Assembly: GCA_017964785.1 (NCBI GenBank)
Contig: JAGCRH010000012.1
Coordinates: 1-32,852, forward strand
Length of the DNA stretch: 32,852 nucleotides
Reading direction: 5' to 3'
Origin: Prevotella sp.
GTDB lineage: Bacteria > Bacteroidota > Bacteroidia > Bacteroidales > Bacteroidaceae
Each line of letters opens with the position of its first letter. Positions within the stretch are counted from its first letter, which is position 1. The notes beneath the pieces were generated by a model. The model had not been told where the DNA came from. It ran no database searches and saw only the letters and a list, made by a program, of their open reading frames with translations. Positions 13,905 to 16,786 of this stretch are shown here, piece after piece. Position numbers and translations under genes: made by a program.

Positions 13905-14069
13905 ATGAAAAAGTATGTATGCGACGTTTGTGGTTACGTGTATGATCCGGCAGAAGGTGATGCCGATGGCGGCATCGCTCCCGGCACAGCCTTCGAAGAC
14001 ATCCCTGAGGATTGGGTCTGCCCCGTCTGCGGAGTCGGCAAGAGTGATTTCTCACCCGTTGAAGAGTAA
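13905..14069 (+). CDS. rubredoxin
   Basis: A 54-residue iron-binding electron carrier. The two knuckles CDVCGY (C6, C9) and CPVCGV (C39, C42) hold one Fe with four Cys. The intervening [28 protein letters not shown] is the standard rubredoxin core. It starts 12 bases after the glycosyltransferase stop and ends before a strong terminator, so it is probably cotranscribed with a glycan gene to which it has no obvious link. In anaerobes rubredoxin often serves oxygen and peroxide reductases. Confidence 0.97.
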
Positions 14070-14160: not shown

Positions 14161-14382
14161 CTATTTGATGACTCTTTTTCTACCATTGTTTATATACACA
14201 CCCTTTGTCGGCACGTTCACACGTCGTCCCTGCAAGTCGAACCAACTGTCTGAATGTTCAGCGTCAATTGTCTTGATACCTGTTGCCTCGCCATTGATGT
14301 TGAACGATATGCCACGATATCGAGCAGAGGCTGCTGGCGGATTGTAAGTTCCACGACACGATTTCCTGACCTCGAAAAACCT
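14161..14382 (-). pseudogene. C-terminal remnant of a secreted protein
   Basis: The minus-strand frame from 14382 to the stop at 14161-14163 has 73 codons, is preceded by an in-frame stop at 14383-14385, and has no start. It reads as the tail of a Prevotella-type secreted protein: SWFDLQGRRVNVP, then KGVYINNGRKRVIK at the very end. This matches the tail pattern of the xylanase and the CotH protein here. The sequence upstream to about 14460 shows no continuation in any frame that I could follow. The rest of the gene seems lost. Confidence 0.65.
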
Positions 14383-14743: not shown

Positions 14744-16702
14744 TTACTCCTCAAACACATATCCAAAGCCAGTACGGCTGACGATATTCTGAGCATATAC
14801 CCCCAGTTTTTTACGAAGACGGGTTATGTTGACATTGACAGTACGGTCAGTGACGATGACGCCTGCCCAAACGGTATCCATCAGTTGCTGGCGTGAGAGT
14901 ACCTTTCCACGATTAGTCAGAAGCAGATGGAGCAATTCGAACTCTGTACGTGTCAGGTTGACGGGATTGCCATCAATGGTGGTAGTCTTCTTGTCGAGGT
15001 TCAAACTCAAGCCATTATAGTTAAGCAGATGCTTACCTAGACGGGCTTCAACGATATTCATGACATAGTCGCCGATTTTCTCACAGTCAGCCACTATGTC
15101 GTTATAGAGTGTGCCAATAGCATAAGAATACTGATGTGAGTTAACCCCCACGACGATTTCACCCTTGAGTTGGTTGCGAAGTTCATTGATGTCGTTCTCG
15201 ATAGAAAGAGAATCTGCCAACGACAGATCTTTGCGCCGTCCGCTCACCACAACAATCATCTGTACTACAGCCTCATTCACCAGTCTGAGCATTTCATGCA
15301 GTCTGACGTATTGCTCAGCAGTGAAGTCATCCTTACTCTCACGCAGATGGTTGACTGTGCGGGCCATCTTGTAACAGGCATCACCAATAGATTCCAGTTC
15401 TCCTATCTGACGAAGTATCACTCGGGTCTTATCCTTTGTCTCGTCAGACAGGTGCTCATTGCCCACTTGCTCGAGATAATTCGCAATCTCTATTTCCATG
15501 TTATCGGCGATGGTCTCGTAACGTTCGATACGTGCATACTGACTTTCAAACTCTTTCTTGTCCTTCTCGTCTATCAGTACACTTGTCATCCCAAACATAC
15601 GAAGCATACGCTCGGCAAAATGCACGATTTCCTTCTGTGCCTGAAGTACCGCAATCTCTGGAGTCTGTATCACACCACCACTGATGAAGTGCAGCGTCGT
15701 GGGTTGTTTGGCTTCCTCTTTTTTTTCTGGCAGAAGTCTGCAGACAATCTGCTCCATCTGTGGAATCAGGCCGATGAGCAATGCTGTGTTAAGGACATTA
15801 AAACAGGTGTGGAACATGGCCAGTACAACAGGTATCCGCTCTGGCTGTCCTGCCATGGAGGGATTATAGCCGACAAGGCTGCACACCATATCGACAAAAG
15901 GATAGAACACGACGAGCACCCAGATGACACCGAAAACATTAAACAACAGGTGAGCCAATGCAGCCCGTCGTGCCTCAGTACCAGCACCAAGTGCCGCAAG
16001 ATTAGCAGTTGCCGTTGTTCCTATATTCTCACCCATCACCAGGGCAATGCCCATATAGATAGGTAGCACACCCGTTGAACAGAGCAGAATGGTAATGGCC
16101 ATCACCGCTGCTGACGACTGCACCACACAGGTAATGATAGTGCCAGCAGCCAGAAAGGCAAGGATGGTGAGATAACTGCCAGTATCAAACGATGCAAAGA
16201 AACTGACCACAGCGGCATTGTGAGCCAAGTCCATGTCACGCCCCACGCTACTCAACATAACCAGCGACCAGAATAGAAATGCCAGTCCGAAGAGGAGATC
16301 GCCTGCTACACGATGACGTTTCTTGTAGATGAGCACCATACCAATAAGGAAAGCAGGGAACACAATGACAGTCAGGTCAAGATTATAACCTAACGACATG
16401 ATCCAGGCTGTGAGTGTAGTGCCGATATTGGCACCCATGATAACAGAGATGGCCTGTGCCAGCGTGAGTAGTCCTGCTGAGACAAATGATACAGTCATAA
16501 CTGTCGTGGCTGATGATGACTGCACCGCACAGGTTACCATCGTACCTGTCAACATGCCACTCAATCGGTTGCCCGTCATTCGGGCCAATATGTGCCTTAA
16601 ACTTGGTCCTGCCAATTTCTGCAAGGCATCACTCATCGTCTTCATGCCGTAAATAAGCAATGCCAGCGAGCCAAGCAGCCTGAAAAACAATTCAATCTTC
16701 AT
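14744..16702 (-). CDS. Na/Pi cotransporter fused to PhoU-like and OmpR-type DNA-binding domains
   Basis: One unbroken 652-residue frame with three parts. Residues 1-320 are an NptA-type Na/phosphate transporter: many membrane segments and the two inverted-repeat signatures QSSSATT (61-67) and QSSAAV (195-200), plus GANIGTT (90-96) and GENIGTT (224-230). Residues about 350-555 are PhoU-like helices with ELESIGDACYKMAR and DCEKIGDYVMNIVEA, as is usual in this family. Residues about 562-651 are a complete OmpR/PhoB winged helix: LTRTEFELLHLLLTNRGKVL, then DRTVNVNITRLRKKLG and SRTGFGYVF. There is no receiver domain. Typical family members end after the PhoU part (about 550-570 residues). It has its own promoter with two direct repeats upstream. 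The domains are clear; a joint sensor-transporter-regulator role is inferred. Confidence 0.93.
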   Translation of the reverse strand: MKIELFFRLLGSLALLIYGMKTMSDALQKLAGPSLRHILARMTGNRLSGMLTGTMVTCAVQSSSATTVMTVSFVSAGLLTLAQAISVIMGANIGTTLTAWIMSLGYNLDLTVIVFPAFLIGMVLIYKKRHRVAGDLLFGLAFLFWSLVMLSSVGRDMDLAHNAAVVSFFASFDTGSYLTILAFLAAGTIITCVVQSSAAVMAITILLCSTGVLPIYMGIALVMGENIGTTATANLAALGAGTEARRAALAHLLFNVFGVIWVLVVFYPFVDMVCSLVGYNPSMAGQPERIPVVLAMFHTCFNVLNTALLIGLIPQMEQIVCRLLPEKKEEAKQPTTLHFISGGVIQTPEIAVLQAQKEIVHFAERMLRMFGMTSVLIDEKDKKEFESQYARIERYETIADNMEIEIANYLEQVGNEHLSDETKDKTRVILRQIGELESIGDACYKMARTVNHLRESKDDFTAEQYVRLHEMLRLVNEAVVQMIVVVSGRRKDLSLADSLSIENDINELRNQLKGEIVVGVNSHQYSYAIGTLYNDIVADCEKIGDYVMNIVEARLGKHLLNYNGLSLNLDKKTTTIDGNPVNLTRTEFELLHLLLTNRGKVLSRQQLMDTVWAGVIVTDRTVNVNITRLRKKLGVYAQNIVSRTGFGYVFEE

Positions 16703-16725: not shown

Positions 16726-16757
16726 CAAAGATACAAAAACGAACTAGGACGGACAAA
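16726..16757 (-). promoter_or_regulatory. promoter of the transporter-regulator fusion gene
   Basis: Read on the minus strand: TTTG (16757-16754), 20 bp, TATCTTTG (16733-16726) followed by C. The ATG at 16702 is 23 bases beyond. An exact match to the Bacteroidota consensus. Confidence 0.75.
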
Positions 16758-16764
16758 AAAAGAC

Positions 16765-16786
16765 GATTACAATTTGATTACGATTC
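16765..16786 (-). promoter_or_regulatory. two 11-bp direct repeats, possible operator
   Basis: On the plus strand GATTACAATTT (16765-16775) is followed at once by GATTACGATTC (16776-16786), 9 of 11 identical. They lie 7 bp upstream of the -33 element of the fusion gene. OmpR/PhoB proteins bind direct repeats with 10-11 bp spacing near the -35 region, so the site is suited to the gene's own C-terminal domain (inference). Confidence 0.5.

Follow-up and report, generated by a model that had tools for sequence, protein, structure and literature searches.

A Prevotella sodium-phosphate transporter fused to a PhoB-type DNA-binding domain is predicted to control its own gene

ToxR and CadC have an OmpR-type winged helix at the N-terminus, a single membrane span, and a periplasmic sensor. 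They belong to the transmembrane regulators, which are membrane proteins with a DNA-binding domain (PMC10269533). In the available text of that survey, proteins with up to 22 spans are counted, and the word "transporter" appears just once in the main text, in the title of a reference. The same text describes Rsp of Neisseria gonorrhoeae, which joins the membrane receptor PilS to the C-terminal DNA-binding domain of PilR, from its own two-component system, and represses pilA (PMC10269533). A transporter with a signalling output is also known: Ks-Amt5 is reported to be an ammonium transporter fused to a histidine kinase (PMC5764959). As for phosphate, PhoB from Bacteroides fragilis is reported, in the accessible part of that study, to bind the pstC promoter (PMC3547664). 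Finally, the accessible passages of an NptA-type survey describe Staphylococcus aureus NptA, which has the transporter signatures and a PhoU-like C-terminal region that affects nptA expression, ends after the PhoU-like domain, and works beside the PhoPR two-component system (PMC13170248).

We analyzed a 32,852-nt stretch of DNA (the window) from Prevotella sp. (assembly GCA_017964785.1, contig JAGCRH010000012.1). It encodes a protein in which an NptA-type transporter and PhoU-like region continue directly into a PhoB-type winged helix (Table 1). As in the PhoR-PhoB systems of Bacteroidota, the winged helix is of the PhoB type, with a nearly identical recognition helix, and the gene is preceded by a repeat with an 11-bp period, at the same distance from the promoter as in three of six Prevotella phoB genes. 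Unlike those systems, the fused protein has no receiver, kinase, or phosphotransfer, and the effector sits on a transporter. The winged helix is C-terminal and the membrane part is polytopic, which differs from ToxR and CadC, and the protein is not of their type. The membrane part of Rsp is a kinase receptor and not a transporter, and the output of Ks-Amt5 is a kinase and not a DNA-binding domain; these two are the nearest cases known to us. Membrane-bound one-component regulators are already known, but here the carrier is a transporter. No Na/Pi transporter with a DNA-binding domain was among the matches listed in our literature searches (subscription papers and preprints lay outside them), and section 5 and the other available passages of the NptA-type survey mention no DNA-binding fusion (PMC13170248).

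Table 1. Features of the fused gene and its promoter in the window (all on the minus strand)
Feature	Position	Strand	Residues	Basis or remark
Repeat CGTAATC-AAAT-TGTAATC, resembling a Pho box	16765..16782	-		Half-sites 11 bp apart; in the fused gene's promoter
Candidate -33 element, TTTG	16754..16757	-		20 nt before TATCTTTG
Candidate -7 element, TATCTTTG	16726..16733	-		TAnnTTTG
Fused gene: NptA + PhoU-like + PhoB-type winged helix	14744..16702	-	652 aa	ATG start; ORF and domain searches
Transporter part, Na_Pi_cotrans x2	15728..16702	-	1-325	Pfam, hydropathy
QSSSATT	16502-16522	-	61-67	Read from translation
QSSAAV	16103-16120	-	195-200	Read from translation
PhoU-like region, expected to be cytoplasmic	15032..15727	-	326-557	Pfam PhoU at 15047-15301
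Internal ATG, ten residues before the join	15059..15061	-	Met548	Possible start of a 105-aa soluble winged helix
OmpR/PhoB-type winged-helix effector	14747..15031	-	558-652	Pfam, NCBIfam, alignments
Probable recognition helix, RTVNVNITRLRKK	14807..14845	-	620-632	Alignment

The initial annotation, made from the sequence alone, had placed an NptA transporter, a PhoU-like region, and a full OmpR-type winged helix in one 652-codon frame that lacks a receiver. The ORF and Pfam searches bear this out. The frame has no internal stop, and just three Pfam families are found at E<=0.01, in the order Na_Pi_cotrans, PhoU, Trans_reg_C. Na_Pi_cotrans (PF02690) matches two stretches (the best is residues 15-151, at 183 bits), so that there are two repeats with QSS motifs, as in Na-Pi cotransporters. 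PhoU matches residues 468-552 (33 bits), with a weaker second stretch at 15356-15619 (21 bits, below the cut-off). Trans_reg_C (PF00486) is complete (residues 578-650, model positions 1-77 of 77, 74 bits). The NptA family model NF037997 scores 188 bits (cut-off 50) and TIGR00704 scores 209.5 bits, slightly below its cut-off of 210.1. The Bacteroidota PhoB model from NCBIfam covers the winged helix with its positions 130-225 of 225 only (E = 3.9e-32), and the nearest solved structure to the winged helix is the effector domain of E. coli PhoB (51.8 bits). The effector segment runs from about residue 558 to 652, so the range of 562-651 that was first given for the winged helix was roughly right. 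There is no receiver domain, with its phospho-acceptor aspartate, and the fused protein is not a response regulator. Rather, it combines a DNA-binding domain and transmembrane segments in a single chain, as one-component transmembrane regulators do.

For the winged helix to act on DNA from the membrane, it should be in the cytoplasm. The PhoU-like region of NptA proteins is expected on the cytoplasmic side. Judging from a hydropathy script, which is our only basis for the topology, the clear hydrophobic segments lie within residues ~1-324. Past residue 330, the highest value is a borderline 1.32, at residues 468-486 within the PhoU domain, and the maximum in the winged helix is 0.67. The winged helix comes after the PhoU-like domain, and we see no clear hydrophobic segment that would separate the two or lie beyond it; we therefore expect it to be cytoplasmic, as the initial annotation had required.

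We take residues 620-632 to be the recognition helix, based on the alignment to E. coli PhoB and on the structure of that protein. The helix is almost identical between the fused proteins (RTVnVNITRLRKKL) and six classical PhoB proteins from Prevotella (RTVDVNITRLRKKI; the consensus of the six for the helix itself is RTVDVNITRLRKK). Since the recognition helices are so similar, the two kinds of protein are predicted to have the same target.

The join lies at residues 557/558 (window 15032/15031), adjoining position 15035, near which the initial annotation had considered a chimeric join. Across 89 fused loci (74 distinct junction windows), which range down to 64% identity, the join is free of insertions and deletions in every case. 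The end of NptA (...VVEARLGK) leads directly into the start of the PhoB effector (xxYxGLxxNLDKK), without a linker. This is near the natural end of NptA: in unfused operons, 7 of 10 NptA proteins end exactly at ...GK, at or near the residues of the fused join. (In L111 and L130 the end is one or two residues earlier or altered, and in L129 it is three residues later.) In the separate regulators, a receiver and a linker precede an effector start that is homologous to the fused one. Because the same join appears in many separate assemblies, including those of named strains, we rejected a chimeric assembly, which can in practice be set aside. The winged helix is also under purifying selection. 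The median dN/dS is 0.048 for the transporter, 0.069 for the PhoU-like region, and 0.093 for the winged helix (Nei-Gojobori script; 201-202 pairs with overall dS of 0.05-1.2, from 53 ungapped fused genes).

How widespread is the fusion? The initial annotation had proposed a check of its conservation, and it turns out to be both widespread and old. Among the best 80 of 311 relatives in GTDB contigs, 75 have the transporter and the winged helix in one frame, which is not a frequency because the 80 were ranked by their likeness to the fused query. (One of the 75, L087, is cut by the end of its contig.) Of the other five, four have a full separate regulator directly after nptA, and in L110 the regulator is 1.4 kb further on. 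Named strains among the fused records include P. aff. ruminicola Tc2-24, Prevotella sp. P6B1, Prevotella sp. khp7, Xylanibacter ruminicola D31d, P. ruminicola KHT3, and P. ruminicola HUN156. In a sample of 299 genomes from the genus, 27 match a query that spans the junction from end to end (with one terminal residue possibly missing), another 167 match more weakly (E<=1e-20), and the other 105 show no match. Among those weaker matches that were listed, only the winged-helix half aligned, and the frames were mostly of the size of a regulator. In a sample of 393 genomes from the order, two match at E<=1e-38, namely the window's own genome and G684. The genomes with the fusion belong to relatives of Prevotella, mostly from the rumen.

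A few records are assigned elsewhere. The fused gene of G684 (L140) is in a genome of another family, on a contig exactly as long as that of L090, and L098, L099, and L101 are labelled as Paludibacteraceae. Horizontal transfer or wrong labels are possible explanations. Separately, the window's genome encodes a second NptA (L002; G000:C61:4015-5736), which is 60% identical to the fused protein over residues 1-557 and has neither the winged helix nor the upstream repeat.

We searched 67 genomes for PhoB and its kinase: all 27 with the fusion, 30 of the 167 with a weaker match (picked for a separate regulator and good completeness), and 10 picked from the 105 with no match. A PhoB above the model's cut-off was found in 30/30 genomes with a separate regulator, 2/27 fused genomes (G097 and G194), and 0/10 genomes without a match, where the 30/30 and the 0/10 follow in part from how the genomes were chosen. 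A PhoR-type kinase above 170 bits was found in the same 30/30, 2/27, and 0/10. So, in 25 of the 27 fused genomes, our profile and sequence searches found neither a separate PhoB nor a PhoR-type kinase. Gaps in the assemblies do not explain all of these absences, because G141, which is a single contig of 3.45 Mb and 99% complete, has no PhoB above the cut-off. Across the genus sample, a separate match is present in 2/27 fused genomes versus 167/272 others (Fisher p = 3e-8, which is only indicative as the genomes are related). Nor did we find PhoB above the cut-off in nine more entries for fused genomes, which are G684 (best match to the PhoB model at 212 bits, below the cut-off), six strains, and the genomes of L098 and L061. 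(Three of the six strains are apparently the same as G241, G079, and G292 among the 27, as the coordinates are identical.) The genome of L083, which is fused, does have a PhoB above the cut-off. Contamination might account for PhoB in G097, G194, and the genome of L083.

As to other phosphate genes, PstB was above the cut-off in 8 of the 67 genomes, none of them fused; eight more genomes score about 321-335 bits, including two fused ones (G095 and G154). Five PstB-like ATPase domains score lower (~248-255 bits, under the cut-off; G315:C10, G174:C7, G292:C39, G299:C22, and G035:C2) and lie in frames of 911-952 residues, which is an odd length for PstB. In the window's genome, which is 81% complete, the two NptA proteins are the only ones with a Pfam PhoU match, and there are two OmpR-type regulators besides the fusion.

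We then considered where the fusion came from. At loci L107, L108, L109, and L111, and in genomes G020, G028, G035, and G122, the gene after nptA encodes a full regulator, and next comes a kinase in a frame of ~300-340 residues. The kinases beside classical PhoB are longer, at about 450-540 residues. The arrangement varies: in L110, the regulator-kinase pair is further downstream of nptA; in L145, the pair precedes nptA, which is cut by the contig's end; and in G009, the regulator follows nptA and a kinase of the operon type is on another contig. (Also, in G122 (L129) a second, cut nptA lies ahead of the operon, and in G090 (L145) the nptA that follows the pair has a repeat of its own between them.) Neighbouring genes for NptA, a PhoB-type regulator, and a short PhoR-type kinase are likely the ancestral state, and comparison of these loci suggests that the fused gene seems to descend from such an operon. 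Near the fused genes of L032-L106, our receiver and kinase queries found little. In L037, a frame with weak likeness to a kinase (27 bits) comes immediately after the fused gene, and other kinases or receivers are nearby in L078, L085, L093, and L097. L083 (CADBRQ010000066.1, 11136-13065) has a PhoB-PhoR-type pair 4-5 kb from the fused gene on the same contig, and is possibly an intermediate.

The trees do not give a simple picture of this origin. Starred branches in the NptA-part trees require that the fused state changed twice, L008 groups with L103-L106 apart from the main group, and none of 200 bootstrap trees has all fused rows in one clade. Constraining them to a single clade lowers the log-likelihood by 40, which the AU test does not reject (p = 0.179). 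A quick NptA tree places operon forms among the fused ones. In the winged-helix tree, all 89 fused rows are on one side of a branch, with support of 14. The uniform join favours a single origin, without proving it. Recombination, a second fusion event, or the later splitting of a single fused form are possible as well.

Upstream of the fused gene is a direct repeat that resembles a Pho box. It lies a short way upstream of TTTG-N20-TATCTTTG, and we take TATCTTTG to be a candidate Bacteroidota promoter element of the TAnnTTTG type. Of 75 distinct upstream regions of fused genes, 69 have the repeat no more than 170 nt from the start (0.05 are expected from shuffling), as do 8 of 9 unfused operons (it is absent from the operon-like L023). 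The repeat is also found in 1 of 20 nptA genes without a regulator, but in that gene (L013) the match, at -40, runs into the promoter region and could be a chance one. Of the six fused exceptions, two have the repeat further away (L059 at -275 and L062 at -264), L081 has a degenerate form, L074 has too little upstream DNA, and in L092 and L008 we found no repeat in 450 nt. The spacing is also kept. Among loci in which TAnnTTTG follows the repeat, the gap between them measures 32 or 33 nt in 57 of the 64 fused ones and 32 nt in 8 of 8 operons. (An exact TTTG at the 20-nt spacing is present in only 18/57 fused upstream regions.) Of six classical phoB loci, three (L133, L134, and L135) have the repeat within 170 nt, 32 nt before TAnnTTTG (0.01 are expected from shuffling), and three (L132, L136, and L137) have no repeat in that range. 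At eight PstB loci there are four repeat matches versus 0.8 expected; the one clear case is L146, with two overlapping repeats 80 nt before pstS, while L148 has one repeat ~520 nt upstream of the cluster and another inside a gene, and the other six loci have none. Given these few classical cases, the repeat with an 11-bp period is probably the Pho box of Prevotella. With the site, the spacing, and the recognition helix all conserved, the fused winged helix is predicted to bind it. The site and the -33 region do not overlap, and the site is the more upstream of the two, so activation fits better than blocking.

We also counted such sites across genomes. In the 2.88 Mb of the window's genome (81% complete), CGTAATC-N4-TGTAATC has a single exact match. 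A strict pattern, built from the fused sites, has exactly one match in 19 of the 27 fused genomes and none in the other 8. In all 19, the match is on the upstream side of the fused gene; a script confirmed this for 15 (62-73 nt before the start, or 257 nt in G001), and coordinates did so for 4. A caveat is that the matches at the fused loci are partly by construction, because the pattern was drawn there; the absence of matches elsewhere is the only independent result. There were no matches in 10 genomes that lack both the fusion and PhoB, and a reversed control gave 4 matches in 37 genomes. A looser pattern has 8 matches in the window's genome, counting the gene's own site, versus 11 for its reversed control; one of them, on contig 66, is inside an ORF. 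We rejected a broad regulon, since none of the 27 fused genomes has a further match to the strict pattern. Weaker targets besides its own promoter are possible, but the comparison points to control of its own gene rather than of a broad Pho regulon.

The genes around the fusion are not conserved. Each of the five neighbours in the window is seen again in at most 1 of 75 loci, and a conserved operon partner, which we considered, was not found in these loci. A same-strand frame is close downstream in 40 of 74 loci, where the largest group of similar genes has 4 members, all from closely related loci. (The loci differ in length, which puts some neighbours out of reach.) Because the neighbours are not conserved, the upstream site appears to travel with the fused gene. 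In the window itself, two short frames near the fused gene were read by eye. Downstream of it, at 14161-14316 on the minus strand, a frame fragment that ends in ...WFDLQGRRVNVPTKGVYINNGRKRVIK*, and resembles the tail of a secreted Prevotella protein, is apparently a gene relic. A small ORF with ...CPVCG at 13905-14069 on the plus strand is convergent with the fused gene, and we take it to be rubredoxin-like.

Putting these results together, we propose that the fused protein is a self-regulating phosphate transporter that serves as its own membrane-bound transcription factor. We give this reading a probability of roughly two in three. Since nearly all of the fused genomes that we checked lack the usual kinase and regulator, it is probable that one membrane protein both senses phosphate and switches its own gene. 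In our model, an ancestral arrangement of nptA, a phoB-type response regulator, and a short phoR-type kinase would have collapsed. In the process, nptA would have lost its stop codon, the regulator its receiver and linker, and the kinase gene would have disappeared, so that the intact C-terminus of NptA was joined directly to an intact PhoB effector. The fused protein would import phosphate with sodium, and the PhoU-like domain would control the attached winged helix directly, in place of signalling by a kinase. Under low phosphate or flux, a dimer of the winged helix, with one subunit per half-site, would bind the TGTAAC repeat just ahead of the -33 region in its own promoter and would probably activate the gene, acting from the membrane. 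When phosphate is plentiful, the PhoU-like domain would withhold the winged helix. In the available passages of the S. aureus work, removing the PhoU domain of NptA raised nptA expression, so in that species the domain already has an effect on the phosphate response, alongside a two-component system (PMC13170248). The idea of the initial annotation, that a single protein would sense phosphate and act as a regulator, is supported, with two corrections: the regulation would be of its own gene rather than of a broad Pho regulon, and the gene seems to derive from an nptA-regulator-kinase operon.

Other explanations need to be weighed. The active regulator could be a soluble winged helix, released by proteolysis or translated from the internal start at Met548, with the full-length protein as a mere carrier. 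Such a form would reach DNA more easily, and the internal ATG is present in 74 of 88 fused genes, versus methionine in 2 of 37 unfused NptA proteins, most of which (28/37) have valine there. But the change from valine to methionine could be one inherited substitution, and 14 of the 88 fused genes, from several lineages, have ATC, ATT, or ATA instead. The strong constraint on the transporter and the PhoU-like region, and the fact that none of the 89 loci gained a linker at the join, also speak against this reading. We consider it rather unlikely. Alternatively, the winged helix could regulate its own gene but report only how much transporter is present (a simple feedback), and not phosphate or the state of transport. 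In its favour, the strict site is found only at the gene's own promoter, and the sequence does not reveal a signal. Against it, the likely PhoB-type ancestor had a receiver, a kinase, and the same promoter geometry, and the domain directly before the winged helix, with no linker, is PhoU-like, which is a control module of NptA in the accessible account of S. aureus (PMC13170248). Feedback by abundance alone therefore seems unlikely to us.

It is very unlikely that another regulator reads the site while the attached winged helix is idle or has some other task. There are candidates for such a regulator, as three fused genomes still have PhoB and the window's genome has two further OmpR-type regulators, but 25 of the 27 fused genomes, including the single-contig G141, have no PhoB above the cut-off, and the winged helix matches Prevotella PhoB in its recognition helix and is maintained by selection. 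Lastly, the fusion might be an accident without function, or an artefact. Deletions do create fusions, and this gene was first seen in one fragmented assembly; the initial annotation had itself offered a recent deletion with no function gained as an alternative. The presence of the fusion in 75 of the best 80 relatives, named strains included, and the identical join in all 89 loci argue against both an artefact and chance. The dN/dS of 0.093 for the winged helix, together with the uniform join, led us to reject a recent non-functional fusion, which is also opposed by the promoter site with its conserved spacing and by the lack of a separate PhoB or PhoR-type kinase in most fused genomes. We regard this explanation as refuted for practical purposes.

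If the fused protein is indeed a self-regulating transporter, it might be a one-gene nutrient homeostat, in which the state of transport, as read by the PhoU-like domain, directly sets the binding of the winged helix at its own promoter, where the genome's only strict site was found. We see the odds of this as even. The homeostat could be a collapsed two-component system whose tethered regulator is specific to its locus by geometry. Such specificity is possible because the gene for a membrane protein is drawn to the membrane during transcription, translation, and insertion.

A long-standing question is how a phosphate transporter and PhoU inform PhoR-PhoB about phosphate. In the fused protein, the kinase and the phosphotransfer are apparently gone and a PhoU-like domain is joined without a linker to the DNA-binding domain of PhoB, so that work on the signal could use a single purified protein. 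Both ends of the path from a two-component to a one-component system seem to have been kept, as classical phoB, the unfused nptA operon, and the fused gene, and where the site is present, these three share the same promoter geometry.
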